Of a stretch of 30,470 bases of DNA, positions 348-29,486 are shown piece after piece. The position numbers were made by a program, and so were the translations under genes. The stretch is from a virus. Numbering within the stretch: position 1 is the first letter of the stretch; every line of letters begins with the position of its first letter. Location of the stretch: IMG/VR virus record IMGVR_UViG_3300028612_001125, positions 1-30,470 of that record. One strand, 5' to 3'. Under the pieces are notes generated by a model. It did not search any database. It saw only the letters and a list, made by a program, of their open reading frames with translations, and was not told the DNA's origin.

Positions 348-368
348 ATCCACCTAATTATACACCAT

Positions 369-1467: not shown

Positions 1468-2523
1468 TTATTTCCTCTTCGAATTTTCAATAAACTTCCT
1501 ATTCTTTGCTATCTGCTGCTGAGTCATTACATCAGCCAAATTTCGATGCATAACTTTACCCTGTTCACGAACCTGTTTCTCTCGTGACCGCTTCATAGCT
1601 TGACTAACTGGATCATTTAAAGCGTGAATATCATCAACTTCCTCCTTAGATTTAGCAACAATATATACTTCGTCAGCACCAGATATTTTAGGATTGTTAC
1701 TTATCATAGATTCTGTATTCTCCTTTTTCGAATCACGATGCTGAATAAGCATCCAACCATCTAACATGTCATCATCTTCAATAACTTCTTTGTCAGGACA
1801 TTCTGGATGTTCGTGAATATTATCATACATTTTAGACCAAGATACTAACCTATGTTGTTCATCTGTCCAATTAGCACTATTGACTGGTAACAAATTTAGT
1901 TTACTAGTGTTCCACAAAAATGTCCATTCATTAGATCTTACTAAACTTCTATATTCCGTATCAGATAATTTATTCTTATATGAACAATCTTGAGCATGAT
2001 TAATCAAAGTATAACTTTCTTGAAGAAAAGAGTCATCCTTCCATAAAAGCTGAAACTGCTCATCATATAAAGAATATGCTATCTCATAATTATTTTTCAC
2101 AATCGCCGCAAATCCCGTACTCGTTGTATAATGTAAAGAAAATTTTTGATCAAATAGTTTATCAAGACGATTAACTTTAAACTTTATAATATTTCGTATC
2201 TCTTTTATTTTATTGTTTTGTTTACGATTTTTATAAAGGTTGACTTTTAGATTTTCAATCTCCTTACCTAAACTCTTTATTTCCTCATCTTTGGTATTTG
2301 ACCACAATTCCACACTCTTCATATAATTAATTATATCATCAAATGTCATCATTCCGAGGTCTTCAGCATCTTCAATAGTTTTAACATAAATCTTATTTAT
2401 AAAATACTTCTGCTTTATATCTATCGGTCCAATCAAATACATGCATTCATCAAGAAAAAATCCCGTAAATCCTGCTAATATATTGGTAATTTTAAGTTCA
2501 GTTTGTGGATTGTTGAGACTCAC
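1468..2523 (-). CDS. Hypothetical protein (351 aa), tail region, GTG start
   Basis: The frame opens with GTG at 2523, preceded by AGGAA about ten bases upstream. This start lies inside the end of the 49-aa gene in another frame. Residues 80-125 are Lys/Asn/Glu-rich and look like a coiled coil; the middle third is rich in Trp and Tyr (for example RSNEWTFLWNTSKLN); the last 50 residues are basic and Gln-rich (KRSREKQVREQGKVMHR). No known family is recognised. The location between the tail tube and the tape measure suggests a tail assembly or completion role. The protein is larger than a usual tail chaperone, so its function is left open. Confidence 0.7.
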   Translation of the reverse strand: MSLNNPQTELKITNILAGFTGFFLDECMYLIGPIDIKQKYFINKIYVKTIEDAEDLGMMTFDDIINYMKSVELWSNTKDEEIKSLGKEIENLKVNLYKNRKQNNKIKEIRNIIKFKVNRLDKLFDQKFSLHYTTSTGFAAIVKNNYEIAYSLYDEQFQLLWKDDSFLQESYTLINHAQDCSYKNKLSDTEYRSLVRSNEWTFLWNTSKLNLLPVNSANWTDEQHRLVSWSKMYDNIHEHPECPDKEVIEDDDMLDGWMLIQHRDSKKENTESMISNNPKISGADEVYIVAKSKEEVDDIHALNDPVSQAMKRSREKQVREQGKVMHRNLADVMTQQQIAKNRKFIENSKRK

Positions 2524-2647
2524 GTATAGTTAGTTCCTGTAACTTATCATTTAAATCGTAAATATTTTGTTCTAGAGATGTTTTTTCCAGATACAATTTT
2601 CCTACAATTGTACACAATTCCTGATAGCTAAAGGTTGGATTTTCCAT
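2498..2647 (-). CDS. Small hypothetical protein (49 aa)
   Basis: ATG at 2645-2647 with an excellent ribosome site (AGGAG, spacing about 7), ending in TGA at 2498-2500. The protein begins MENPTFSYQELCTIVGKLYL and continues as a probable amphipathic helix (EKTSLEQNIYDLNDKLQEL), like a short coiled coil. Its end overlaps the GTG start of the 351-aa gene by 26 bases, as expected for translationally coupled phage genes. It sits directly behind the terminator that follows the tail tube gene. Function unknown; a coiled-coil partner or tail chaperone fragment is possible. Confidence 0.62.
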   Translation of the reverse strand: MENPTFSYQELCTIVGKLYLEKTSLEQNIYDLNDKLQELTIRESQQSTN

Positions 2648-2661
2648 AAAAGTCTCCTAAG

Positions 2662-2690
2662 AAAAATAGGGGGACTATTACTAATCCCCC
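2662..2690 (-). terminator. Intrinsic terminator after the tail tube gene
   Basis: On the minus strand GGGGGA and TCCCCC form a perfect 6-bp GC-rich stem with a 10-base loop. The sequence TATTTTTC follows. It begins 8 bases after the tail tube stop codon. The next ATG (2647) is only about 15 bases past the T tract, leaving no room for a promoter, so downstream genes need read-through. Confidence 0.75.
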
Positions 2691-2697
2691 AAAAAAC

Positions 2698-3837
2698 TTA
2701 TCCAGTAGAGCTAAATAAATATTGAGCCATACCAGCCGCATTAGGACGAAGATCAACATCAGGATCAAATTCATGCATAACCGTCATAACATTAAAGTTA
2801 GAATAGCTATAGGTAATAGTAGCATTTCCACCACCAGTGTCTCCACCACCATAAGTGATAGATGAAAGCTTATTTTTAGTGCCAAGATAAATACGTGTTC
2901 CTTCACAGGCAACAATTCGAACAGTTTGATTAGTTAGGTTGTTCCCAGCACCACAAGCACCAGCAGAAGTACAACCTTCAACAGTAGCTGAAACCATATC
3001 ACCACTAACCGCAATAACTTCAAAATCTGATGTTACTTCTACGGGAAAATTAACGAAACGGTGATATGGACCTTTTGCCCCTAATTCAAAGATTTCTTCA
3101 CGACCAAGATCAGTACTTATCGTAATATTCTGGAAGTGAGCGTTTTTAAGACCATTAGTTCCATTTGAAGAAACGCCAAAAATATCTTTAGGAAATACAG
3201 AGTTATCAATTTCTGCACTAGCACCATTAACATCAACATGAGTACCACCAGCAGCGGTCATAATAAGGTCTTCACGACGATTTATACCACCGGAACTAGC
3301 AATAGCAAGTGGTTCATCTGTATCATCGAAAGCACCAACTGTCGAAAAAACGGTGGGAGCACCTAAACATGCTGTATCATTTACCCATAACTTCTCATTT
3401 CCAACAAGTGTAACATCTTCGGAAAAACTTCCTTCAATAGGGTACGTATAACTTAAAGATTGTGTGAACATACCTGACATATGAACTTCAGATAAAGGTT
3501 GTCCTTGTGCTGAATCATTAGTATCATCAAAGATAGACAACGCACCAATAGTCTTAATAGATGAACGACCCGATAATGTTGGAGTTGAAGCATTTCGTGT
3601 CGCTAAGTGATAGATTAATGGATAACCATCTAGGAATTTTTGTATAGTTAGTTCAACATCAGGAATATCTTCAACATTCTCATAGACAGCATTCTGTCCA
3701 ATTTCCTGAATAGCATCTAAATTGTATGTGGTTGTTACGCCGACAGACTGTGCACCGTGGACTTCAGTAAAAGTTAAAGTACCATCAGTTGCAAAACTTA
3801 TCTGCTGTACTGCGTAAAATATGCGTTTATTAGCGAT
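2698..3837 (-). CDS. Major tail tube protein, apparent non-canonical (ATC) start
   Basis: The open frame runs from 2698 up to an in-frame TAA at 3859-3861 and contains no ATG or GTG near its beginning. The first TTG is at 3540, which would delete 99 residues. The upstream part reads (M)ANKRIFYAVQQISF, typical of tail tube N-termini, directly after a GGAGG ribosome site 6 bases before ATC at 3835-3837 (ATT at 3841-3843 and ATC at 3838-3840 are nearer alternatives). The resulting protein is about 379 aa. Later motifs include SLSYTYPIEGSFSEDVTLVG and TDLGREEIFELGAKGPYHRF, the latter like conserved tail tube segments. Tail tube monomers stack as hexameric rings around the tape measure. A terminator follows. 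The odd start could be genuine ATC/ATT initiation or a single base error (ATC for ATG); the sequence alone cannot decide. Confidence 0.82.
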   Translation of the reverse strand: MANKRIFYAVQQISFATDGTLTFTEVHGAQSVGVTTTYNLDAIQEIGQNAVYENVEDIPDVELTIQKFLDGYPLIYHLATRNASTPTLSGRSSIKTIGALSIFDDTNDSAQGQPLSEVHMSGMFTQSLSYTYPIEGSFSEDVTLVGNEKLWVNDTACLGAPTVFSTVGAFDDTDEPLAIASSGGINRREDLIMTAAGGTHVDVNGASAEIDNSVFPKDIFGVSSNGTNGLKNAHFQNITISTDLGREEIFELGAKGPYHRFVNFPVEVTSDFEVIAVSGDMVSATVEGCTSAGACGAGNNLTNQTVRIVACEGTRIYLGTKNKLSSITYGGGDTGGGNATITYSYSNFNVMTVMHEFDPDVDLRPNAAGMAQYLFSSTG

Positions 3838-3873
3838 GATAATCCTCCATCTCTTTTGTTAGTAAGAGTTTAT

Positions 3874-3889
3874 GTCAAATAAATTTGAC
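3874..3889. promoter_or_regulatory. Perfect inverted repeat between divergent genes (possible operator)
   Basis: GTCAAAT-AA-ATTTGAC is a perfect 7-bp dyad with a 2-base centre. It lies between the tail tube start and the divergent HNH gene, close to both candidate promoters. The form fits a dimeric repressor site, but no regulator gene is seen nearby. Confidence 0.4.
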
Positions 3890-3902
3890 GTAACTTTATT
3901 AG

Positions 3903-3930
3903 TTGACAAATCTCGAATTTTAGTTATAAT
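3903..3930 (+). promoter_or_regulatory. Consensus sigma-70 promoter for the HNH endonuclease gene
   Basis: TTGACA at 3903-3908 and TATAAT at 3925-3930 are perfect matches separated by 16 bases. The predicted start of transcription is near 3937, about 70 bases before the ATG at 4005. This is the only promoter needed to explain a gene that runs against the surrounding operon. Confidence 0.85.
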
Positions 3931-3952
3931 GTAACAAGTAGGTAATTTTCAA
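3923..3952 (-). promoter_or_regulatory. Possible minus-strand promoter for the tail tube region
   Basis: On the minus strand TTGAAA (3947-3952) and TATAAC (3923-3928) are separated by 18 bases, and the expected start is near 3916, upstream of the tail tube gene. It overlaps the -10 box of the rightward HNH promoter, so the two polymerases could compete. The match is good but the spacer is one base longer than ideal. Confidence 0.4.
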
Positions 3953-4004
3953 TTAAACTAAAACTCATTATAATATACACCAATACCGTTTAGGAATAAG
4001 ATTT

Positions 4005-4637
4005 ATGAATCATAATGGTAAAAAATGTGGTTATTTGATATTAGTAAAAAAATATCATAAAGAAGAGAAATATAGATATGGCATAATTAAAAGAATATAC
4101 TGGGAGTGTAGATGTATATGTGGAAAAGTAATAAATCGTAGACAAGATTATTTATTTAGTGATAGAGGAAAAAATGCTTCATGTGGATGTAAACATTCTA
4201 TGAAATCTGATACAGGATCAAATAGTAAAACCTGGAAAGGATATGGTAAAATATCAGGACAATATTTTTCATTAATAAAAAACAGAGCTAATAAGAAAAA
4301 TTTAACATTCAATATTACAAAAAAATATATATGGAATCTATATCTTGAACAGGGGGAAAAATGCGCATTAACAAGTATAATTATAGATATTAAAGAATCA
4401 CGAAGATCTCAAGAAGTAAATGAAATGACCGCATCTCTAGACAGAATTGATTCTACTAAAGGATATATAAAAGGTAACGTCCAATGGGTACACAAAGATA
4501 TCAATCGTATGAAGAACAACTACGATCAAGATTATTTTATAGAAATGTGTCACAAAGTTTCAAAATCTAACAAACAAACTACCAATGAAGCAGTAATTAA
4601 TGCACATACACCGTTAAGATTCGCAGGATCTAAATAG
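4005..4637 (+). CDS. Free-standing HNH-type homing endonuclease with zinc-binding N-terminus
   Basis: 210 aa. An N-terminal Cys cluster (WECRCICG near residues 33-40 and SCGC at 59-62) looks like a zinc-binding DNA-recognition module. The C-terminal half has the family signature ASLDRIDS...GYIKGNVQWVH...NRMKN (about residues 143-171), typical of HNH-like nucleases spread among phages. Such enzymes nick or cleave intron- or gene-free alleles to drive their own copying; that is family knowledge. The gene is alone on the plus strand inside a minus-strand structural operon and has its own perfect promoter. This fits a mobile nuclease insertion rather than a virion gene. Its last 20 residues (after HKVSKSNK) look like an unrelated tail. 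Very AT-rich codon use. Confidence 0.82.
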   Translation: MNHNGKKCGYLILVKKYHKEEKYRYGIIKRIYWECRCICGKVINRRQDYLFSDRGKNASCGCKHSMKSDTGSNSKTWKGYGKISGQYFSLIKNRANKKNLTFNITKKYIWNLYLEQGEKCALTSIIIDIKESRRSQEVNEMTASLDRIDSTKGYIKGNVQWVHKDINRMKNNYDQDYFIEMCHKVSKSNKQTTNEAVINAHTPLRFAGSK

Positions 4638-4710: not shown

Positions 4711-5685
4711 CTAGATAGATCCGTCAATAACTTCAATAGTTGTTTTAACTACTCCACCGAATAAATGGGTATTAATTTGGCCCGCAGATTGAACACTAGT
4801 ATCATTAAACCTAGCCCGCCCCCATCTAAACCCGCCGTCATTTGGATGACCAACAAAATCTGGATACATATTAGCATTAGTTTCTAGTGAGCCATTAACG
4901 TCAAGCGGCCAACCCGTAGCATTTTCCACAGCATTAACGTCAAAGAAGAATATAGTTTTATCACTTTGAAGTGAAAGAGTATCTACAATTTGATTACGTT
5001 CCCACTTATGTTCAGCGAACACATGGAAAAAGATATCAGTACGAACCCATTGTCCCCCACCTAACTGATACCCCTGGAAGGTTCTACGTCCCCCAGCTTC
5101 AATGACCACAGCGGGCAACTGCAATCTATTATTTGCAAGCTGGTCCCATGCGCCTGATCCCTTTTGATTAAAATGGGTATCGTCTGGACGAAGACTCCCA
5201 AATTGAAGTTCTTTAAACCACGGATTATCCGAATCTATTACATTAACCCACTTATAACTATATCTTACTTTTACATTACTAGAAGTATCAATAGCAGTGT
5301 CAAAAACAATACGTCCGAGTGGATGGTTAACATAATGATTAAATTGACCAGTTTCACTAATAGTACGAAAAACATTGTTTACATATGCTCCTGATACTTC
5401 GATAGGTTGAGTAGAATGATGAACACCTGTCTCCCAAACCCAATTACTTCTTGGACTTTCCCATACTTGCCCATCAGTATAATTAGGATCATTTACCAAT
5501 CTTAAATCATTAAAAGTTCCTCCATAAACTCCAGATTCTGGGAAGTCATCTACGTTGAAAAAGCTGCCAATTCCGAGAAATCCCCAATTTAAAAAAAAAT
5601 TTAAATTTTGCTCGATTTGAGTTTCTAACGAAGAGCGACCGACAAATTTTATCCCTTTGAATTTCGTATAATCTTGAATAGGCAT
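4711..5685 (-). CDS. Phage structural protein of unknown role, just upstream of the tail tube gene
   Basis: 324 aa, ATG start with AAAGGAA about 9 bases upstream. The N-terminus is Phe-rich (TQIEQNLNFFLNWGFLGIG), and the rest is rich in Gly, Trp, Asn and beta-prone residues, including HPLGRIVFDTAIDTSSNVKV and GGRRTFQGYQLGGGQWVRTD. No catalytic motif is seen. Its position between neck/adhesin genes and the tail tube gene suggests a virion component such as a tail terminator or tail completion protein. It does not look like a contractile sheath: it is too short and lacks a recognisable sheath motif. Originally it probably lay directly upstream of the tail tube gene, and the HNH gene now separates them. 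Confidence 0.7.
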   Translation of the reverse strand: MPIQDYTKFKGIKFVGRSSLETQIEQNLNFFLNWGFLGIGSFFNVDDFPESGVYGGTFNDLRLVNDPNYTDGQVWESPRSNWVWETGVHHSTQPIEVSGAYVNNVFRTISETGQFNHYVNHPLGRIVFDTAIDTSSNVKVRYSYKWVNVIDSDNPWFKELQFGSLRPDDTHFNQKGSGAWDQLANNRLQLPAVVIEAGGRRTFQGYQLGGGQWVRTDIFFHVFAEHKWERNQIVDTLSLQSDKTIFFFDVNAVENATGWPLDVNGSLETNANMYPDFVGHPNDGGFRWGRARFNDTSVQSAGQINTHLFGGVVKTTIEVIDGSI

Positions 5686-10098: not shown

Positions 10099-10338
10099 TT
10101 AAGAACTCACATTAAAAGTAAATGAATCTTTATCTTTAATATTTAAACCAAATGAATCTTGTTTTTTAATTAATAAATCAAAACTTTGCTGTTGTCTAAT
10201 CAATAAATCAAAAGAAAGAACAGTACTAACACCACCGACTACTGGGGGGACAGAAACCACACCCACAGTAGAAATAGCAATATTATCACTATTATCATAC
10301 CAAATAAATATTGGTGAAAGTCTAAAATTAATACCCAT
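10099..10338 (-). CDS. Small repeat protein (79 aa) of the fibre block
   Basis: The C-terminal half is built of ten-residue repeats beginning at residue 42: SFDLLIRQQQ, SFDLLIKKQD, SFGLNIKDKD and SFTFNVSS. Alternating hydrophobic residues point to successive beta strands. The N-terminal 40 residues have a hydrophobic core (FRLSPIFIWYDN, then VGVVSVPPVVGGVSTV). No known domain. It overlaps the end of the 796-aa fibre gene by a base and is followed after one base by the 107-aa gene. It may be a short spike or fibre-tip accessory protein. Confidence 0.55.
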   Translation of the reverse strand: MGINFRLSPIFIWYDNSDNIAISTVGVVSVPPVVGGVSTVLSFDLLIRQQQSFDLLIKKQDSFGLNIKDKDSFTFNVSS

Positions 10339-12728
10339 TATGATGTGTTATCTCGTCCTAATAGTCGAGTAAATGTTCGGGTTGATCCCTCAATGGTTCC
10401 ACTAACAGATACGATATAACTTTCTCCAGTTTTTTGTCGTTCTCCTCCAGTAGCATCATATTTAAAAACGTGTGTACTACCAATTTCGGTTAAAGGCGTA
10501 GGAGATATCAAGCTTGTACCAGAAGAGCGTTTAACAGAATGTATAATTGGATTCGTAATACCGGTCGTTACACGTGCCGCATTTTTAAACCAAAATATAG
10601 TGTGTTCATCTATACCGCCAGAGCCATCAATTTGCAACCGAATATCAGCATGAAAAACGTTTAATGCATCTAAGTCAGCCTGAAAATCTCCAGTACTCGT
10701 AACAGTAGTACCAGCAACAAATGTAACATTAGCATCTACAACTCCAGTAATACTAGCTGCAACAACGCCGGTTATATTAATAGTTAGACTACTTACATCA
10801 GTTTGGAACTGATTTATATTAGTCTGAACACCAGACAAAGCTACAATATTAGCTTTAACACCACTTCCACTAAATGCTAACTGATTAGTTTTACTTTTAA
10901 CAGATATAACATCGCCACTTGTAGCATTCAACATACCGGCGAATGTCATCTTCTTAAAACCATCAACGCCTAAAGCGTGTCTAATCTGAGCCTTTTCTCC
11001 TTCAGCCCAATCACCACTTGCAACGCTTACATCAGCTTGAAATTGATTAATATTAATATTAATGCCTGATACCGAAATAACATTAGCAGTAACAGTACCT
11101 GTAGCAGCAACAGTTAAATTATTTACATTCGACTGGAACATATTGATATTAACCAAGTTACCAGAAGTAGAGATTATATTAGCTTCAACACCACTTCCAC
11201 TAAATACCAGCTGGCTGGTCTTAGATCTAATATTAGTAACTTCTCCACTAGCAGCCATAGTATTTCGTATAATACCGACTACACTTCTCAGCGATGTTAA
11301 GCTAGCTGCTCCACCATCAAACAAACTAAATTCTGGATTTGAAGGCGAATCATGTGTAATATAAGAGAATATAGTTTTAGCAGCAACTGCCGTTGTCGCT
11401 GGTAATGCGGTTTTTACTAAGTAGTGTAGCTTATTATTTATTAAGGTCGCATCAATAATTTCAGCGAACAATCCTGTACCATTAACATCCTGACCATCTA
11501 GGGCTACCATATCAGATTTAACGCCGCTACTACTAAAAGTAAGTTGATCTGTTTTAGTTTTTACAGATAATACATCACCACTAGTAACTGCTAACATAGT
11601 TTGTCTAGCTAAGAAACTAGTATCAGCCTGAAAATCTCCAGTACTAGTTACAGGAGTACCACCAACAAAAGTAATATTAGCATTTACAGTACCAGTGGCT
11701 GGTAATATTGTAGATATATCAGCACGATATTTATTTATATCCGTTTGAACACCAGACAAAGCCACAATATCAGCTTTAACTCCACTACTACTAAATGATA
11801 ATTGATCAGTTTGAGCCTTGACAGATAAAACATCACCACTAGTTACCGCTAACATAGCTTGTCGAGCCAGAAAACTAGTGTCTGCCTGAAAATCACCCGT
11901 ACTTGTTACAGCGGTTCCACCAACAAATGTAATATTAGCATCAATAGTTCCAGTAGGCGTTAACACCGTAGAAATATCTGTCTGATATTGATTGATATTT
12001 GTTTGAACACCCGACATAGCAACAACATCAACTTTAACGCCACTACTACTAAAAGTAAATTGATCTGTTTTAGTTTTAATAGATACAACATCGCCACTTA
12101 CAGCATTCAACATTCCACTGAAAGTAGCCTGTTTTAATCCGTCAATACCAAGGGCATCTCTAATCTGCGCCTTTTCTCCTTCAGCCCAGTCACCGCTACC
12201 AGTAGCACCACCCTGGAACATATTTATATTAACAGACACACCAGAAACTTCAACAACATTAGCATTAACTTGTTCAGCTGGTTTAATAGCCACACCAGAA
12301 ACAGCAACCACATCAGATTTAACACCACTAGATGAAAATGTTAACTGATCTGTTTTTACTCTAATAGCAGCAACATCACCAGATGTAATAGTAAGTTCAA
12401 CTTGAATATCATCCACATCTTTTTCAGTAACAACAAAATTATCTATAGAAATTTTTGATTGTAAACTTTGAACAGCGCCAGACACCACAACATCGTAAAA
12501 TCTACCAATATCAAATCCTTCAATACCACTAACGGGAATATGTCCACGATATAATCCAGTAAAACCACCACGCTTAGCCATAATACCATTATAAATAGCC
12601 GTATCACCATCTTGTTCAAAAACACCAAATCTTGGAAGATCATCAGTATCAAATGAAAATCCACCTGATGGATGGTGTGTCGTAACACTAAAATATTTTA
12701 CTGAATTAATTTTAACTTGATTTGACAT
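10338..12728 (-). CDS. Large repeat-rich tail or head fibre protein (796 aa)
   Basis: Residues 1-100 form a recurrent phage structural N-terminal domain (FDTDDLPRFGVFEQDGDTAI, then GHIPVSGIEGFDIGRFYDVV). The rest is dominated by repeats: blocks with SGDV-x-S-V/I-K-x-K/Q-TDQL-x-FSSSGVK, followed by a VALSGVQTNINQY type segment. Two full 86-residue units are adjacent, and the GDWAEGEKAQIRDALGIDG element, typical of phage fibres, occurs twice. The last 90 residues look Ig-like. A fibrous, trimeric beta/coiled shaft is likely. The start overlaps the end of the previous gene by 17 bases. No enzymatic motif is seen; attachment or scaffolding is the probable role. Confidence 0.8.
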   Translation of the reverse strand: MSNQVKINSVKYFSVTTHHPSGGFSFDTDDLPRFGVFEQDGDTAIYNGIMAKRGGFTGLYRGHIPVSGIEGFDIGRFYDVVVSGAVQSLQSKISIDNFVVTEKDVDDIQVELTITSGDVAAIRVKTDQLTFSSSGVKSDVVAVSGVAIKPAEQVNANVVEVSGVSVNINMFQGGATGSGDWAEGEKAQIRDALGIDGLKQATFSGMLNAVSGDVVSIKTKTDQFTFSSSGVKVDVVAMSGVQTNINQYQTDISTVLTPTGTIDANITFVGGTAVTSTGDFQADTSFLARQAMLAVTSGDVLSVKAQTDQLSFSSSGVKADIVALSGVQTDINKYRADISTILPATGTVNANITFVGGTPVTSTGDFQADTSFLARQTMLAVTSGDVLSVKTKTDQLTFSSSGVKSDMVALDGQDVNGTGLFAEIIDATLINNKLHYLVKTALPATTAVAAKTIFSYITHDSPSNPEFSLFDGGAASLTSLRSVVGIIRNTMAASGEVTNIRSKTSQLVFSGSGVEANIISTSGNLVNINMFQSNVNNLTVAATGTVTANVISVSGINININQFQADVSVASGDWAEGEKAQIRHALGVDGFKKMTFAGMLNATSGDVISVKSKTNQLAFSGSGVKANIVALSGVQTNINQFQTDVSSLTINITGVVAASITGVVDANVTFVAGTTVTSTGDFQADLDALNVFHADIRLQIDGSGGIDEHTIFWFKNAARVTTGITNPIIHSVKRSSGTSLISPTPLTEIGSTHVFKYDATGGERQKTGESYIVSVSGTIEGSTRTFTRLLGRDNTS
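11573..12088. repeat. Two tandem 258-bp repeats inside the fibre gene
   Basis: The segments 11573-11830 and 11831-12088 are clearly similar along their whole length, in register, with a period of 258 bases (86 codons). More diverged partial copies lie on both sides. This is the DNA image of the 86-residue protein repeats and offers a substrate for unequal recombination. Confidence 0.85.
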
Positions 12729-14016
12729 TACTAAATATTCTTTGATAATTTCTATTAAAGGTTGAAGATTTAAACATTGACACTGGCACTGAACGACTCA
12801 TAGTTATTAATTTATCAGCAAAAAACAATCCAGTACCCCACCTAGCATGTGCATCTGACGTCGGCCAATTGATCGTGAATCCATCTGCATCAAATGAAGT
12901 AAAATCGGCCTCAGATCCAAGAGAGCCAGCCGGAGCACTTCTAAATTGTATAAACTCACCACTAGTATCCTCAGCACGATGTCTACATACAGAACCTGTA
13001 CGATCATGTTCATCACTAGACCACACACCCCTTGCATTAGTTCCATCAGATCCATACCGTGAAACCTGCATATCATCAATAACAGTTTTATTGTTATCTA
13101 CTCCCAAATATGAAAATCCATACCAACCTTTCGGTTGAAACCCAACTCCGGTAATCGACTGACTTCCGCTCGACGTTTTCTTCTGCCAATTCAACAATTT
13201 CATCTGTGGACCCTTTAGGCAAAGAGCGTAACATTTGAACGCACTCCCCGGAGCCGAAGACCAATTCAGAGTGAATCCATCAGCATCGAGACTTACGCCA
13301 TTAGCTTCGGCAGAAATCCCCGTTGTGAAATCAGGAACCAGCAGGCAGTCACTTGCTGAATGAACCCTTCGGCATACAGTTTTCGTCGTAGCCGCATCAT
13401 CCGCCGAAAAACCAATTGCAGCACCGTTCAAGTCGTCCTTTGTAAAACATCCCAAGCTATGTTTGGCATGCCGTTCCCAAGTTTCATCCAAGGAACTTGT
13501 CGCCCACAAAAGAACGGCATCAGGTTGAAAACCCGCACCGACAACCGCTTGTTCCCCAGTAGAAGTCTTCATATCGAATGGAATAACTTGGGCTGAGAGA
13601 TCATCACCACCTAAAGCAATGTAGTAGATAATAAGATTCGAATAGTTAAGAGTTACATAATTCAATGTGAATCCATCAACATCAAACGAAACAAGGTTTG
13701 CTCGGGCTCTCGGAAACACAAAACCCCCAATGGCTAAGCACCTTCCCGCAACGCTAGAGTTGTAACTATTGTCAATCTGCGGTGGCCATACCCAGGAGTT
13801 CGATCCCAACATACTGGCGACACCATCACCAACATCCGTGCCAGTAACGACTCCCCCATTAAAGTGAAAATCACTTTTATTTGCAGCTTCTTCCCAAATA
13901 CTAGCCCCAGCCGGGAAGAACAGCAACGCCTTCGGCTGAAACCCGATGCCGGTATAACTCTGACTACCTACTCCCGCAGGACCAACTAGTCTTCCAACAT
14001 AAAAATTAAATGCCAC
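12712..14016 (-). CDS. Triple-repeat fibre/adhesin protein, GC-richer than its neighbours
   Basis: 434 aa made of three repeats of about 130 residues. Each begins with a Ser/Gly-rich stretch leading to GFQPKALLFF, GFQPDAVLLW or GFQPKGWYGF and ends with a DGFTLNW/DGFTINW strand. The last 25 residues are basic (FKSSTFNRNYQRIF). The repeat is shared with the 422-aa and 447-aa proteins, so these are paralogues. The fold is likely a beta sandwich serving virion display or attachment; no enzyme motif is seen. Codon use is visibly richer in G and C than surrounding genes, so the coding sequence may have been acquired recently. It overlaps the 796-aa gene by 17 bases and abuts the 134-aa gene. Confidence 0.75.
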   Translation of the reverse strand: MAFNFYVGRLVGPAGVGSQSYTGIGFQPKALLFFPAGASIWEEAANKSDFHFNGGVVTGTDVGDGVASMLGSNSWVWPPQIDNSYNSSVAGRCLAIGGFVFPRARANLVSFDVDGFTLNYVTLNYSNLIIYYIALGGDDLSAQVIPFDMKTSTGEQAVVGAGFQPDAVLLWATSSLDETWERHAKHSLGCFTKDDLNGAAIGFSADDAATTKTVCRRVHSASDCLLVPDFTTGISAEANGVSLDADGFTLNWSSAPGSAFKCYALCLKGPQMKLLNWQKKTSSGSQSITGVGFQPKGWYGFSYLGVDNNKTVIDDMQVSRYGSDGTNARGVWSSDEHDRTGSVCRHRAEDTSGEFIQFRSAPAGSLGSEADFTSFDADGFTINWPTSDAHARWGTGLFFADKLITMSRSVPVSMFKSSTFNRNYQRIFSNVKSS

Positions 14017-14421
14017 TTATTTAACCTCATCTTTCCAAAGTTGCTGAAACTGATTTTGATTCATAGTTGTAAAAGAATCCCCATTGGCAATACGATTATT
14101 GAACTTACGTAATAATTCACTTAACGCAATAATAATCTTTCCAAGTGAATCTTTAGTATTTATCATCGCTTTTGCATGAGAAACAATCTCTATAGCTTTA
14201 TCAGCATCTCGAAATAACACGAAATTATTAATTTCATCAATTGTAGCATTTCTTATTTCGATTCCATCCCAAATCCTAGGCAAATCATGATTAAGTGATA
14301 GAGATTCAGAAACATCAAATATTGTCCAATTATGAAAAGAGTCTAGCACATCGCCTTCATCAACCGTAGACATTCCTTCAACTTCACCACCATTAATACG
14401 ATATAAATACCGATTAGCCAT
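14017..14421 (-). CDS. Small fibre-associated protein, paralogue of the 135-aa gene
   Basis: 134 aa. It opens with ANRYLYRINGGEVEGMS and later has IRNATIDEINNF and a C-terminal helical region. The same order of motifs (YRKNRGEVLGASS, VRNADAGEISNF, then a basic helix) occurs in the 135-aa gene at 15722-16129, so the two are paralogues. Both lie directly upstream of a triple-repeat fibre gene. The pairing suggests an attachment adaptor or a chaperone for the following fibre. The ATG has AGGAG about 9 bases upstream. Confidence 0.68.
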   Translation of the reverse strand: MANRYLYRINGGEVEGMSTVDEGDVLDSFHNWTIFDVSESLSLNHDLPRIWDGIEIRNATIDEINNFVLFRDADKAIEIVSHAKAMINTKDSLGKIIIALSELLRKFNNRIANGDSFTTMNQNQFQQLWKDEVK

Positions 14422-14451: not shown

Positions 14452-15720
14452 TTACACACCTAATGAAGATAAAGTTAATCGACCCACTTGAAATAGATGA
14501 CTAGTTTTAGACTTCAAATTACCAAAGGCCATAAACATAAACTGTCTATTTGTGCTATCCGCCGTAGTCCAATTATTTAAAAATCCCGTTGAACTAATAG
14601 CAGAAACTTGAGACTCAGCTTGCAAAACTGCCGTACTTTGATGTCTATACATAATAGAATGGGAATTAGAATTTATTCTCCCAGTGTTACTTAATCCAGC
14701 ACCACCTGCCTCATATATCCAAGTAGAAGTATTAGATACATTGCCAGAAGAAGCTCCTAGAGTATATGTTATATGTGGTAAAATACCAGTATTCGCCACA
14801 TTACCTAAGCTAGAATACAACACATTCAATGGTGTAAAAGTAGTAGAATGACCTTTTTCTCCAGCAGAAGTTTTTTGCAGACCACTACCAACTTGAAAGT
14901 TGCCCCCCTTAAAAAGTAATCCCCAACTAGTAAAGGATAAACTACTTTCTTTTTCCCATTGAACTTTGTATCCATCAGAATTAAATTCGGTTAATCTACC
15001 AGATTGAATAATTTCATCATTATCACCGCCTCCTGGAGTACCCATTTCTATAAGAATATTGCCAAATGATTGAATTCCAGCAATTTCACTCTGAAATATA
15101 TTATTTTCACTTTCCCAAGTCGTAGATCCCTGAGTTGTTCCATCGGCGAAACCTAGAGAAAAAGATGTATTATTAGCATTACTTTGTGTGCCAGATTGAA
15201 GGACACTAAAAAATATACCAGCATCAGGTTGAAATCCAACTCCGCTATAACCAGATTCAACAACTCCAGTACTAGATACCATTTCAAAAAGACTAGTATT
15301 AGTTATTTCATCTCCACCCCACAAGATGTATGAAAAAATAACACCAGTGCTATCCAAGGTACTCCAATTTAATGCTATACCACTACTATTAATAGATCTT
15401 AAATCAGCTTCAAAAATAATTGAAGTAGAACCACCAACATCATCAATCATAGATATAATTTTAGAATTATTATGTCTCCTAATAGTATTAGTGCTAAGGA
15501 CTTTGTTGGCCTCAGAAAATGTAGATACCGAAGCTTGTCCACTATCAGAAGCAAACGCACCAAAACTAAAATATAGATGATCTGTGACAGTAGTACCGTT
15601 ACCAGCATTAACACCCCAAATTAAACCGGCACTCGGTCTAAAATCAACAGTATTAAACACAGTATCATGACTAATACTTGGAGGAACAGCGAATGTACCA
15701 ACTACAGATTTTAAAGACAT
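14452..15720 (-). CDS. Triple-repeat fibre/adhesin protein (422 aa)
   Basis: Three repeats of about 130-140 residues, each with an F-x-P strand (VDFRPSAGLIW, VGFQPDAGIFF, TTFTPLNVLYS) and a later SSGIALNW or SDGYKVQW type strand. It is paralogous to the 434-aa and 447-aa proteins. The sequence is Ser/Thr/Asn-rich with no charged core or active-site motif, as expected for a beta-structured surface protein. It begins one base after the 135-aa small gene. AT-rich codon use contrasts with the 434-aa paralogue. Confidence 0.74.
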   Translation of the reverse strand: MSLKSVVGTFAVPPSISHDTVFNTVDFRPSAGLIWGVNAGNGTTVTDHLYFSFGAFASDSGQASVSTFSEANKVLSTNTIRRHNNSKIISMIDDVGGSTSIIFEADLRSINSSGIALNWSTLDSTGVIFSYILWGGDEITNTSLFEMVSSTGVVESGYSGVGFQPDAGIFFSVLQSGTQSNANNTSFSLGFADGTTQGSTTWESENNIFQSEIAGIQSFGNILIEMGTPGGGDNDEIIQSGRLTEFNSDGYKVQWEKESSLSFTSWGLLFKGGNFQVGSGLQKTSAGEKGHSTTFTPLNVLYSSLGNVANTGILPHITYTLGASSGNVSNTSTWIYEAGGAGLSNTGRINSNSHSIMYRHQSTAVLQAESQVSAISSTGFLNNWTTADSTNRQFMFMAFGNLKSKTSHLFQVGRLTLSSLGV

Positions 15721-15721
15721 T

Positions 15722-16129
15722 TTAACTAATTCTCGAAATCATATTTTGATATCTATTTTTTATTTGTCGTCTCGTCCTATCAGATAATCCATGTTCTGCT
15801 CTTAATATATTAATTTCAGATCTAATTACTTCTAATATAGCACGTGCATGTAGTCCAAAATTATTATTTTTATCTAATGATCCCGAAGAATCCACACGTA
15901 TTTGTAACGCATCATCTTCTGTTATTGCGGAGCTAAAATTAGATATTTCTCCAGCATCAGCATTTCTAACAACTCCACTAACGTGAATCTTCGTTATAGC
16001 TAAATCTCCCCCATCTGGCGTAGATGGATTTACAGATACTCCAAAAAATCTATTAGATTCAAAAACCGCATCATTAGAAGATGCTCCTAAAACTTCACCA
16101 CGATTTTTTCTATATATAAATGATGACAT
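15722..16129 (-). CDS. Small fibre-associated protein, paralogue of the 134-aa gene
   Basis: 135 aa. It begins SSFIYRKNRGEVLGASSNDA; a middle segment reads VRNADAGEISNFSSAI, and the C-terminus is a basic helix ending DRTRRQIKNRYQNMIS. It matches the 134-aa gene in motif order. It lies one base after the 447-aa fibre gene and one base before the 422-aa fibre gene. A strong AGGAG site precedes its ATG. The role is unknown; a linker or chaperone for the adjacent fibre is the positional guess. Confidence 0.68.
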   Translation of the reverse strand: MSSFIYRKNRGEVLGASSNDAVFESNRFFGVSVNPSTPDGGDLAITKIHVSGVVRNADAGEISNFSSAITEDDALQIRVDSSGSLDKNNNFGLHARAILEVIRSEINILRAEHGLSDRTRRQIKNRYQNMISRIS

Positions 16130-16130
16130 A

Positions 16131-17474
16131 TTATCTCCTAAATATGGTTGCTCCTTTTTTGGGTAAAGAATTTATATTACTCATAGGATGAGATATAACA
16201 CCCCTATTAGTATTTCCAACATCTTTAATACCAGATCCAATAAACACAGTTAAAATTTCACGATCAGTCCATACGGCGGTACTTATATTAAACTTAAATA
16301 TTCCAGTGCCAAATTCAACACCACTTCCTATAACTTTTTGTATACTTGTAATATCCCTAAAATGAAACATATTATCAATATCACAGTACATCCTAGTATT
16401 AGTAGTACTTATAGAATTTTGATAAACAGAATTATATCCATATTGCTTTTTGCCATCAAAAGCTCCCTGAAGATAGTAACAATGATTTCTTATATCTCCA
16501 GAAGTTCCAATGGGCCTCATATCACTACTAAAAAACATACCTATAGGAGTAAAAGGAATTCCACTAACTGTATAATTACCAACACTAGATCCTGTAGAAA
16601 ATTTAGTTAAATTATACTGTCCTCCTTTAATTCCTGTAACAAAAAATCTTTGAGCAATTGATGGTACTGTTAACCAATTAATAACAAAGCCACTATTATT
16701 TTTTTCTAAAAAGTATCCTTCAGCATTAATAAATTGAGATGTAAGATCATAATTTACATAACAACGATTACTCCATTGCCAACGTTTTGCTACGGTACTT
16801 GGTAATCCGCTTTCTTCAAGAAATCCGTGAACAAATCCACTAGAATCAGGAGTAGCATACCCTATAACTTCATTAGCATGTGTAATATATTGACCGGTTC
16901 CTAAATGTGCGCCACCAACAAATATATATAAATCAGCACCAACATCAAAGTTATATTGCTGAGCACCCGTCGAAGTAGGAACAAAAAATTCTTTTTGAGA
17001 TACGCCTCTAATATCTGAACCACCCAATGTCATTGTTGTCCACATATAATTTGGCGCAGTATCAACTGTATTAAAATTAAGACTATAAGTTCCCGTACTA
17101 TCTATACTAGTAAAATGAGCAGATTTTCTAATACTTACTTCAGCTTCATTTCTATACATAAACAAATTATTACGACTCTCGCCACCACTATTTGGAATAA
17201 TAGTCGTCCAACAAAAAGAGTCTGCAGAACTTCGTTTAGACGCAGCACAATATCCAATAGAAGTAACGTTTGTATTTCCAGCAACGGTTAAAAAATTAGG
17301 AACAGTAGAAGTACCGCTATTCATATATCCAGTAATAGTTCTAGCACCAATATGCCAAACTAATTTAGGACGATACTGTCTATTATTAGGAATGTGAGAG
17401 GCGGCTTTATACTTTAAAGTTTGAACTGAAGTAGGCGCTAAGTGTCCGTGAGAAACATTAAAATATAATGACAT
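16131..17474 (-). CDS. Triple-repeat fibre/adhesin protein (447 aa), first after the capsid gene
   Basis: The protein has three diverged repeats matching those of the 422- and 434-aa paralogues, with elements such as IRKSAHFTSIDSTGTYSLNF, GFVINWLTVPS and GIPFTPIGMFFSS. The repeats are more divergent here, so the paralogy is weaker but the spacing is alike. Rich in Tyr, Ser and Thr; no enzymatic motif. It is the first gene after the double terminator downstream of the major capsid gene, with AGG about 8 bases before its ATG. Its place next to the capsid gene rather than after the tail genes leaves open whether it decorates head or tail. Confidence 0.7.
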   Translation of the reverse strand: MSLYFNVSHGHLAPTSVQTLKYKAASHIPNNRQYRPKLVWHIGARTITGYMNSGTSTVPNFLTVAGNTNVTSIGYCAASKRSSADSFCWTTIIPNSGGESRNNLFMYRNEAEVSIRKSAHFTSIDSTGTYSLNFNTVDTAPNYMWTTMTLGGSDIRGVSQKEFFVPTSTGAQQYNFDVGADLYIFVGGAHLGTGQYITHANEVIGYATPDSSGFVHGFLEESGLPSTVAKRWQWSNRCYVNYDLTSQFINAEGYFLEKNNSGFVINWLTVPSIAQRFFVTGIKGGQYNLTKFSTGSSVGNYTVSGIPFTPIGMFFSSDMRPIGTSGDIRNHCYYLQGAFDGKKQYGYNSVYQNSISTTNTRMYCDIDNMFHFRDITSIQKVIGSGVEFGTGIFKFNISTAVWTDREILTVFIGSGIKDVGNTNRGVISHPMSNINSLPKKGATIFRR

Positions 17475-19724: not shown

Positions 19725-20543
19725 AGCCTCTTTCTCCTTTTTAGGAACATTAATTTTCCTAGCCACGCTAGGAATAAAATCTTTTACATTAGCAAAAATA
19801 ATACTAAAAGGATTGGCAGGACTATAAACTAAACCTTTACCAGCAAACGTAATGTTTTTTAGTAGTCTACCAATCTTCTCATCTTTGTATACACCAGAAC
19901 CACCGTAAACCCTTAAATGTTTGGTAAGATATGCAGTTACACTATTACGTGCTACTATTTTTTGATCACCATTCGAGGTTTCTACAGCATAATCAAAGTC
20001 GGTAAATAAACATTCCATAGATACAAACCATTTAGAAAGATTAGCAATAATATCATCCATACGTGCTTGAGCAGTTTCATCAGACCACTTTTTATACAAA
20101 ACCGCATGAGTTAAAATATGGAAGTTATTTGGTAAATCATCAACCACAAGACTATTAGACAAAGATTTATATTTATCATCTACCAACATATTAGCGACAA
20201 TATGGCCAATAATATCATTGCCATCATGCATAAAATTAAAAGGCTTATCTTCTGGAGTATAGCGTGCGGCAAATAATTGCTCAGCAGAAAAAACGTCATC
20301 GTTTAAATTCCACCCGGATGTGACAAGAATCGAGGATAATGGATGTAAATCCACATCACCAATTTTAGCAATAGTTTCATATTCCTTTTGAATATGATCT
20401 GCCATACTACGCTTTAGAAGAGTATCTTTCCAATCTTTATTAGTTACTGGTAAAATCTCACTAGCATAAGTAATACTATTTGAAGATTGAATCTGATCAA
20501 ATAATCCGGATTCAGCCCTATATGTTGGTATAATTCTATTCAT
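19083..20543 (-). CDS. Prohead maturation protease fused to a scaffold domain
   Basis: 486 aa. Residues 1-270 look like a phage prohead serine protease: His106 in FNFMHDGNDIIGH and Ser175 in KWFVSMECLF are the best candidate catalytic residues. Residues 275-410 are a long Lys/Glu/Ser coiled coil of scaffold type, and the C-terminal 60 residues are acidic (Asp/Glu/Thr). Such fusions cut the scaffold and capsid N-terminus during maturation. An internal ATG at residue 274 has a strong ribosome site and probably yields a free scaffold. The start at 20543 lies inside the end of the 94-aa gene. The assignment of catalytic residues is tentative. Confidence 0.75.
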   Translation of the reverse strand: MNRIIPTYRAESGLFDQIQSSNSITYASEILPVTNKDWKDTLLKRSMADHIQKEYETIAKIGDVDLHPLSSILVTSGWNLNDDVFSAEQLFAARYTPEDKPFNFMHDGNDIIGHIVANMLVDDKYKSLSNSLVVDDLPNNFHILTHAVLYKKWSDETAQARMDDIIANLSKWFVSMECLFTDFDYAVETSNGDQKIVARNSVTAYLTKHLRVYGGSGVYKDEKIGRLLKNITFAGKGLVYSPANPFSIIFANVKDFIPSVARKINVPKKEKEAMSEDTSLDLLKEQNEKLQATVDSLTQKMADQTKQLAESNTDSLNDQITKLTETIQADILTIEGLKSDLDSSNVKNSEVTSKLEDSVVKSEELQTSLDELDAKQREIARMSALKELGKSDEESKSLYTKFGQLDDETFAAMVDTLKSLTPKTDDSETDTAEASANDETLDNAEADTDVNLNISVDTEDDAKTTLKTLASFIAKSCLNHPTEEVV

Positions 20544-23148: not shown

Positions 23149-23182
23149 ACAATACTATACACCACAATGGTATTACAATGTG

Positions 23183-26351: not shown

Positions 26352-26667
26352 GCTTATTCTTATGCCTCACAATTTCCCGAAATAATGATTCATACAATCT
26401 TTCCTTCCGGGTAATCTTCCTATGACATTTCCGACATAAAGAAATTCCATTATCTAGATTATATCGTAATATAGGATTCTCTGCCCATGTTTTTATATGA
26501 TGAGCCTCCACTTTTCTTCCACGATATTTACAAGCTGGAAATTGACACTTATATTCGTCTCTTTGATAAATAGCCTTTCGCCACTTTTTATATTCGGGAT
26601 CGTCAAAATTACGTCCCGTTTTTTTAAAACTACGTTTTAATTTTGTTCTTTTTCTGTAATTAGCCAT
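26335..26667 (-). CDS. HNH endonuclease next to the terminase
   Basis: 110 aa. A very basic N-terminus (KRTKLKRSFKKTGRN) is followed by a Cys-zinc HNH unit: Cys41 and Cys46, VEAHHIKTWAENP (His56-His57), and NGISLCRKCH (Cys78, Cys81, His82). Single-domain HNH proteins often lie beside terminases, and HK97 gp74 is an example that aids packaging. Here it sits between GDP-mannose dehydratase and ERCC4 nuclease genes; its ATG overlaps the upstream stop. A packaging-related cutting role is plausible but not shown. Confidence 0.88.
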   Translation of the reverse strand: MANYRKRTKLKRSFKKTGRNFDDPEYKKWRKAIYQRDEYKCQFPACKYRGRKVEAHHIKTWAENPILRYNLDNGISLCRKCHRKITRKERLYESLFREIVRHKNKHGYES

Positions 26668-27721
26668 AAATCATATCCGCAACAAGTTGCGTAAAGTTAT
26701 ATTTAGGCTCCCATCCTAATTCTTTCCTAGCTCTACTTGAATCCCCGCATAAATACGGAACATCATTAGGTCGATAAAATTTGGGATTAATTTGAACATA
26801 AGGTTTCCAGTTGGTTATTCCAATACAAGCAAAAGCATCATCTAAAAATTCTCTAACAGTATGTGTTTCTCCAGTTGCAATTACATAATCTCCGGGCTTG
26901 TTTTGCTGTAACATCAGGTACATTGCCTTGACGTAATCTTTTGCGTGCCCCCAATCTCGTGATGCGTCTAGGTTGCCAAGTTCAAGATATTTAAAACCAG
27001 TATTAATTAATTCAATGTCAGCTTCTAGTTCGAGCCTAAATGTTTTAGAAATATTACTGGCATTAAGATATTCATCAAGATATCGTACATAGTTCGTTAT
27101 TTTTTTCGTCACAAAGTTATCACCACGTCTCGGACTTTCGTGATTGAATAAAATTCCGCAACTCGCATGTAGGTTGTAAGAATCCCGATAAACCCGAACA
27201 AGATAGTGGGCGGCGAGTTTTGATACGGCATATGGAGATTTCGGATTAAATATAGTATTTTCGTTCTGATAGTTTATTGTTTCTATATCGTTTATCTGAT
27301 ATCGGTCAAAGTTATCTCCAAACATTTCGGAGCTTGAAGCCTGATAGAACCGTATATCTCTATTTTCATGCATTCGCAAAACTTCCAAAATATTTAAAAG
27401 ACCACCTTTATTAATGTCCATAGTTAGTTGGGGCTGATCAAATGATGTAGCGACATGTGACTGTGCAGCCAGATTATAGACTTCGTCTGGATGAGTTTGA
27501 TTAATAGTTCGACTAACAGAACCTGAATCCGTAATATCTCCCTCGACGAGGGTAAAAGCTTCGCAGTCTAATAAATGGGAAATGCGCTGCGTATTTTCCG
27601 TAGATACTCGACGAGCAACACCGATTACTTCGTAATTCTTACCTATAAGGAGTTCAGATAGATAGCTTCCATCCTGCCCGGTAACCCCATAAATTAAAGC
27701 CCGACACTTAAATCCCATCAT
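26660..27721 (-). CDS. gmd: GDP-mannose 4,6-dehydratase
   Basis: 353 aa extended short-chain dehydrogenase. The NADP(H)-binding motif GVTGQDGSY (Gly12, 15, 18) lies at the N-terminus, the catalytic Ser130-Ser131-Glu132 in ASSSEMFG, and Tyr164/Lys168 in SPYAVSK. HESPRRGDNFVTKKI and DASRDWGHAKDYV are the sugar-nucleotide motifs of the family. It converts GDP-mannose to GDP-4-keto-6-deoxymannose, a precursor of GDP-fucose and related sugars. Compared with the E. coli enzyme, an insertion of about 10 residues precedes the catalytic Tyr. No second enzyme of the pathway is present in the window. The gene looks richer in G and C than its flanks. It overlaps both neighbours; ATG 27718 is an alternative start. 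Confidence 0.93.
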   Translation of the reverse strand: MMGFKCRALIYGVTGQDGSYLSELLIGKNYEVIGVARRVSTENTQRISHLLDCEAFTLVEGDITDSGSVSRTINQTHPDEVYNLAAQSHVATSFDQPQLTMDINKGGLLNILEVLRMHENRDIRFYQASSSEMFGDNFDRYQINDIETINYQNENTIFNPKSPYAVSKLAAHYLVRVYRDSYNLHASCGILFNHESPRRGDNFVTKKITNYVRYLDEYLNASNISKTFRLELEADIELINTGFKYLELGNLDASRDWGHAKDYVKAMYLMLQQNKPGDYVIATGETHTVREFLDDAFACIGITNWKPYVQINPKFYRPNDVPYLCGDSSRARKELGWEPKYNFTQLVADMIYG

Positions 27722-29309: not shown

Positions 29310-29486
29310 ATGCAAAAAGATATACACCGGATTAACGAAATAATAGCAGAGCTGCTTAAAGTTAACGTCGATTCTAAGATAAAAACACTTCTAGAGGAGT
29401 TATCACTCCTCATCAAAAAAAGGTTGCGCAACAACAAGGAATTTGAAGAGTTCAACCTACGATTAAAGTTATTTATAGATCAATGA
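29310..29486 (+). CDS. Possible small coiled-coil protein on the plus strand
   Basis: 58 aa from ATG 29310 (GTG at 29304 is an alternative). The sequence is an amphipathic helix throughout, with regular Ile/Leu spacing (INEIIAELLKVNVDSKIKTL) and Lys/Glu pairs. It lies divergent from the leftward operon, within the stretch covered by the leftward promoter's leader. A weak plus-strand promoter (TTGAAG with TATAAT at 29240-29245, 19-base spacing) could serve it. The ribosome site is weak (AAAGAG). Composition is convincing but the regulatory signals are not. Confidence 0.45.
   Translation: MQKDIHRINEIIAELLKVNVDSKIKTLLEELSLLIKKRLRNNKEFEEFNLRLKLFIDQ

Follow-up and report, generated by a model that had tools for sequence, protein, structure and literature searches.

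The tail tube gene of the virus record analysed here encodes a complete protein, and at the position homologous to its family's ATG it carries an ATC codon preceded by a strong Shine-Dalgarno sequence. By our own estimate, which is not a calculation, the chances are slightly better than even that the phage truly initiates this protein with fMet at that ATC (3837..3835). The stretch of DNA analysed, called the window throughout, is the entire virus record of 30,470 bases and probably a fragment of a phage genome; it is assembled environmental DNA, and the ATC is read from the assembled consensus.

The tail tube reading frame and its product

On the minus strand, an open frame of 386 codons (3858..2698) runs as far as the stop codon 2700..2698. 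Its first codons after the upstream TAA are CAA AAG AGA TGG AGG ATT ATC ATC GCT AAT AAA CGC ATA TTT, among which the candidate start codons are ATT 3843..3841, ATC 3840..3838 and ATC 3837..3835. The elements of this region are as follows.

3861..3859, minus strand: in-frame TAA, which rules out any start farther upstream
3830..3850, minus strand: MEDYHR mini-ORF, from ATG 3850..3848 to TAA 3832..3830, overlapping the Shine-Dalgarno sequence and the start
3848..3844, minus strand: Shine-Dalgarno sequence GGAGG, with a 6 nt spacer to ATC 3837..3835
3837..3835, minus strand: ATC standing where the family has its start codon, its third base (3835) being the sole difference from the family's ATG
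2698..3837, minus strand: gene of the tail tube protein, with 379 codons and a stop, counted from the ATC aligned with the family's ATG

A sequence-only reading of this DNA had reported that the full-length frame holds no ATG, GTG or TTG between TAA 3861..3859 and a TTG at 3540, and our own reading of the sequence agreed: the earliest such codon is TTG 3540..3538, a start there would keep 280 codons and lose 99, and no in-frame ATG, GTG or TTG is able to yield the full-length protein.

Searches of Pfam, PHROGs and solved-structure sequences gave no match for the tube protein; its identity, which had been a guess in the sequence-only reading, was borne out by its fold. An AlphaFold model (pLDDT 81.9, pTM 0.85), for which the input alignment comprised 38 relatives, matched the tail tubes of P74-26 (8ed0_A; Z 18.8, rmsd 3.5, 286 aligned residues) and T5 (9iny_A; Z 18.6, rmsd 4.2, 297 aligned residues). 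The predicted structure confirms the protein as a two-domain siphophage tail tube of the T5/P74-26 type, with the modelled fold spanning nearly the whole chain; the two-domain fold is the same as in T5 pb6 and the P74-26 tube, whereas identity to them is only about 10% and the window protein lacks a sequence family match. One relative matched the 'major tail protein' PHROG 1407 (E 1.3e-4), and weak matches to a virion structural protein family were found in 15 of 39 relatives. Since residue 5-6 of the model pairs with residue 1-3 of the solved tubes, the N-terminus obtained from the ATC is complete. As had been supposed, a start at TTG 3540 would wreck the protein, removing strands 10-17, 29-37, 40-43, 51-54, 60-68 and part of 96-103, with which the tube domain begins.

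Tail tube genes are present in more than one copy in some records of the family, with three tandem paralogues in one phage record (L017; record G009, 34309-37857) and a further, distant copy in the L014 record. Other minus-strand genes of the window also caught our attention. Small genes that resemble one another (14017-14421 and 15722-16129) alternate with large ones (12712-14016, 14452-15720 and 16131-17474), a pattern suggestive of modules for virion surface or tail proteins that were duplicated repeatedly; the long protein encoded at 10338-12728 carries repeats of the SGDVxSVKxKTDQLxFSSSGVK type and is perhaps a tail fibre or similar; and the product of 26660-27721, near the packaging genes, resembles GDP-mannose 4,6-dehydratase by eye, which would make it a possible sugar-modifying phage gene.

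Start codons and ribosome-binding sites in the family

IMG/VR was searched in two ways, neither of which needed a canonical start: by profile, and by a DNA pattern covering the codons after the start (A-N-x-R-I-[FY]-Y-A-[VI]-Q and similar). The sequence-only reading had proposed comparison with the first codons of related phages, and in each of the 53 aligned relatives whose start could be read, duplicates removed, this codon was canonical (50 ATG, 3 GTG, 0 non-canonical), although these relatives share kinship and do not represent 53 independent events. The start-independent pattern search agreed, as did the ATG read by eye in L084, a distant relative from a MAG that lies beyond the 53, and a direct search of the family context for ATA, ATC or ATT in place of the start gave 0 matches. 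L034 seemed to have ATC here and L003 GTA, but these are alignment offsets, with ATG one codon away in both. No close relatives were found among named phages. The difference between the ATC of the window and the canonical starts of its relatives is more than chance.

In many relatives TGGAGATTAATT-ATG-GCCAATAATCG aligns gap-free with TGGAGGATTATC-ATC-GCTAATAAACG of the window, which identifies ATC 3837..3835 as the homologue of the family start codon, with the Shine-Dalgarno sequence upstream at proper spacing. The sequence-only reading had offered either a rare ATC or ATT start or one wrong base; this dichotomy holds, and the relatives narrow it to base 3835 in the second ATC, to the exclusion of the ATT. 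A start at ATT 3843 or ATC 3840 is scarcely credible, the least so of the readings considered here: the three consecutive isoleucine codons invite it, and L003 begins one codon earlier (MVANRR), but GGAGG would then stand 0 or 3 nt from the start, too short a spacer compared with the 6 nt to ATC 3837.

The GGAGG was correctly described in the sequence-only reading as well spaced. Its predicted duplex energy of -9.3 kcal/mol ranks first among the 54 family members, whose median is -6.4, a single observation with a chance of about 1 in 54 among relatives that are not independent, and among the window genes it ranks 3 of 32. The strongest Shine-Dalgarno sequence of the family is what compensation of a weak start would predict. 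The three GTG relatives, which seem close to one another, also have Shine-Dalgarno sequences above the family median, and Belinky and others reported that non-AUG starts accompany stronger Shine-Dalgarno sequences (PMC5622118). Predicted RNA structure at the start site is weak and unremarkable, and regulation through structure of this region was rejected.

The canonical codons of all 53 aligned relatives are what would be expected if base 3835 arose from an error of consensus or assembly, or were a minority variant chosen by the assembler, while the phage population carries ATG and the gene is nothing unusual. One substitution would be enough, the frame is otherwise intact, and the 30,470 bases of the window come from a single assembled virus record; we regard this explanation as a serious possibility, although it falls clearly short of even chances. 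It leaves the unusually strong Shine-Dalgarno sequence unexplained, and other defects were not seen in the roughly 32 genes of the window: the other genes checked, including a small one with its start at 2647, each began with ATG, GTG or TTG and held a single, terminal stop, which argues that the contig is not poor in general. Either event, a real change or an error, is rare, and it is the strong Shine-Dalgarno sequence that tips the balance to a real change.

The upstream interval and the mini-ORF

Two features lie between the tube gene and the gene upstream of it (5685..4711).

4005..4637, plus strand: HNH/endonuclease VII-like free-standing homing endonuclease gene (PHROG 3322, E 1.9e-25)
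3982..3974, minus strand: promoter-like motif TGGTGTATA, about 140 nt upstream of the ATC, between the tube gene and the HNH gene

The HNH gene sits antisense in an interval that measures roughly 50-130 bases in most relatives, and none of the relatives examined showed an HNH match at its tail-tube locus; the wider interval of L017 contains another gene and a tail tube paralogue. In L100 and L104 (about 2417-4110), relatives of the HNH endonuclease stand directly ahead of distant tail-tube-like genes, and the endonuclease stop overlaps the ATG of the next gene (ATGA).

The window contains four copies of TGGTGTATA (367..359, 3982..3974, 19896..19888 and 23164..23156), mostly just ahead of genes and all on the minus, or gene, strand, against 0.36 expected on both strands. 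Similar GTGTAT motifs stand 37-111 nt ahead of the tube start in most relatives, and TGGTGTATA has the look of a late promoter used by this group of phages; GGTGTATA is also found at 29328..29321. The fact that a TGGTGTATA motif separates the tube gene from the HNH gene implies that the insertion probably stopped before the start codon, and the HNH insertion was rejected as the cause of the altered codon since the TGGTGTATA in between looks native. A group I or II intron, or another known RNA, with the ATG in an upstream exon was likewise discarded, as Rfam gave neither a gathering-level nor a meaningful relaxed match. No tRNA, and so none matching the codon, was found in the window.

A case in Neisseria, where a mobile element changed the ATG of a PAAR gene to ATC and the gene was missed by annotation (PMC10210955), speaks for a further reading: base 3835 could be real and the tube gene off, or nearly so, in a non-viable or defective variant or in a phage whose second tail tube gene lies elsewhere; some relatives do carry extra copies (three in the L017 record, two in that of L014), and a record that is probably a fragment leaves room for one. 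We consider this very unlikely. Most relatives have a single tube copy, and the start region with its TGGTGTATA motif looks native, so that the HNH insertion probably stops short of the start codon. In addition, signs of decay are absent from the tube gene, its first 99 codons being conserved, in frame and similar to the remainder in GC by codon position.

The mini-ORF described in the sequence-only reading is present at 3850..3830, but the suggestion that it couples re-initiation found no support, as its ATG lies within ATGGAGG and overlaps the Shine-Dalgarno sequence, it lacks a ribosome-binding site of its own and it is poorly shared in the family. Translation from ATG 3850, followed by entry into the tube frame through re-initiation after the mini-ORF TAA or a +1 shift, could draw on the overlap with ATC 3837..3835, since the mini-ORF stop begins 2 bases past this codon. 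We nevertheless hold such a route to be highly improbable: there is no ribosome-binding site before 3850, the ATG is kept in just 13 of 47 family members including the window (9 have GTG at this position and 25 neither), and by inspection MEDYHR offers no codon allowing the P-site tRNA to re-pair in the +1 frame, so that a programmed frameshift out of the mini-ORF was rejected for want of a suitable site. Relatives with ATGGAG keep the downstream ATG intact, which indicates that ATGGAG is simply their Shine-Dalgarno sequence, and the mini-ORF of the window is judged from its sequence to be a probable by-product of ATGGAGG.

Proposed initiation at AUC and its significance

We infer from the sequence evidence that base 3835 is probably real, that the AUC is used and that the Shine-Dalgarno sequence compensates for it. 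In the mechanism that we propose, a single-base change in the third position of the tube start codon would have left the gene to be read from the resulting AUC; the strong GGAGG six bases upstream would hold the 30S subunit so that the AUC is placed in the P site, where fMet-tRNA would pair with it despite the third-position mismatch. IF3 would reduce this pairing but not abolish it, and the AUC would be used at a lower yet sufficient rate. The primary product would start fMet-Ala-Asn-Lys. The usual rule for methionine aminopeptidase predicts removal of fMet ahead of Ala, and the mature N-terminus would thus probably be A-N-K-R-I-F, as expected for the relatives.

Against a real AUC start, none of the 53 aligned relatives has one, AUC initiates poorly, and many copies of the tube protein are required. 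The AUC-CAU pair has a third-position mismatch of the kind rejected by IF3 (PMC10158994), and a survey of 61,358 ancestral AUG starts found one switch to AUU and listed none to AUC (PMC5622118). The measurements of AUC start efficiency cited in PMC13068326 were made in E. coli, and the efficiency may differ in the phage's host.

There are bacterial precedents. The gene infC, which encodes translation initiation factor IF3 and begins with ATT in E. coli and with ATC in Streptomyces (PMC5472188), shares an AUU or AUC start and fMet initiation with the tube gene; in contrast, infC employs its rare start for IF3 feedback, whereas the tube gene is structural, is seen in one record and shows no signs of regulation. 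The rnhC gene of Listeria monocytogenes likewise has an ATC start, experimentally confirmed according to PMC13068326, but it encodes a cellular enzyme and is fixed in the Listeria core genome, while the tube is a virion protein. The GTC of sigR in Streptomyces has a third-position C like the tube ATC, and its translation is limited by IF3, although both the codon and the regulatory nature of that gene set it apart. The tube ATC is a rare case of a known kind, with no new mechanism. A stronger proposal, that the AUC start is both real and selected, with an IF3-discriminated codon throttling the tube protein or with a requirement for initiation machinery altered by the phage, seems to us very unlikely; examples of such alterations would be reduced IF3 activity at late stages of infection, or an initiator tRNA encoded in the portion of the genome absent from the record.

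The significance of the tube ATC is modest pending confirmation by reads. If base 3835 is an error, the case shows how the alignment of relatives can tell whether a start codon is rare or has been lost. Gene finders limited to ATG, GTG and TTG would cut 99 residues off the tube protein or overlook the gene. If the start is real, AUC yields an abundant and essential virion protein in this phage, and a strong Shine-Dalgarno sequence can support an AUC start at the levels of a structural protein.
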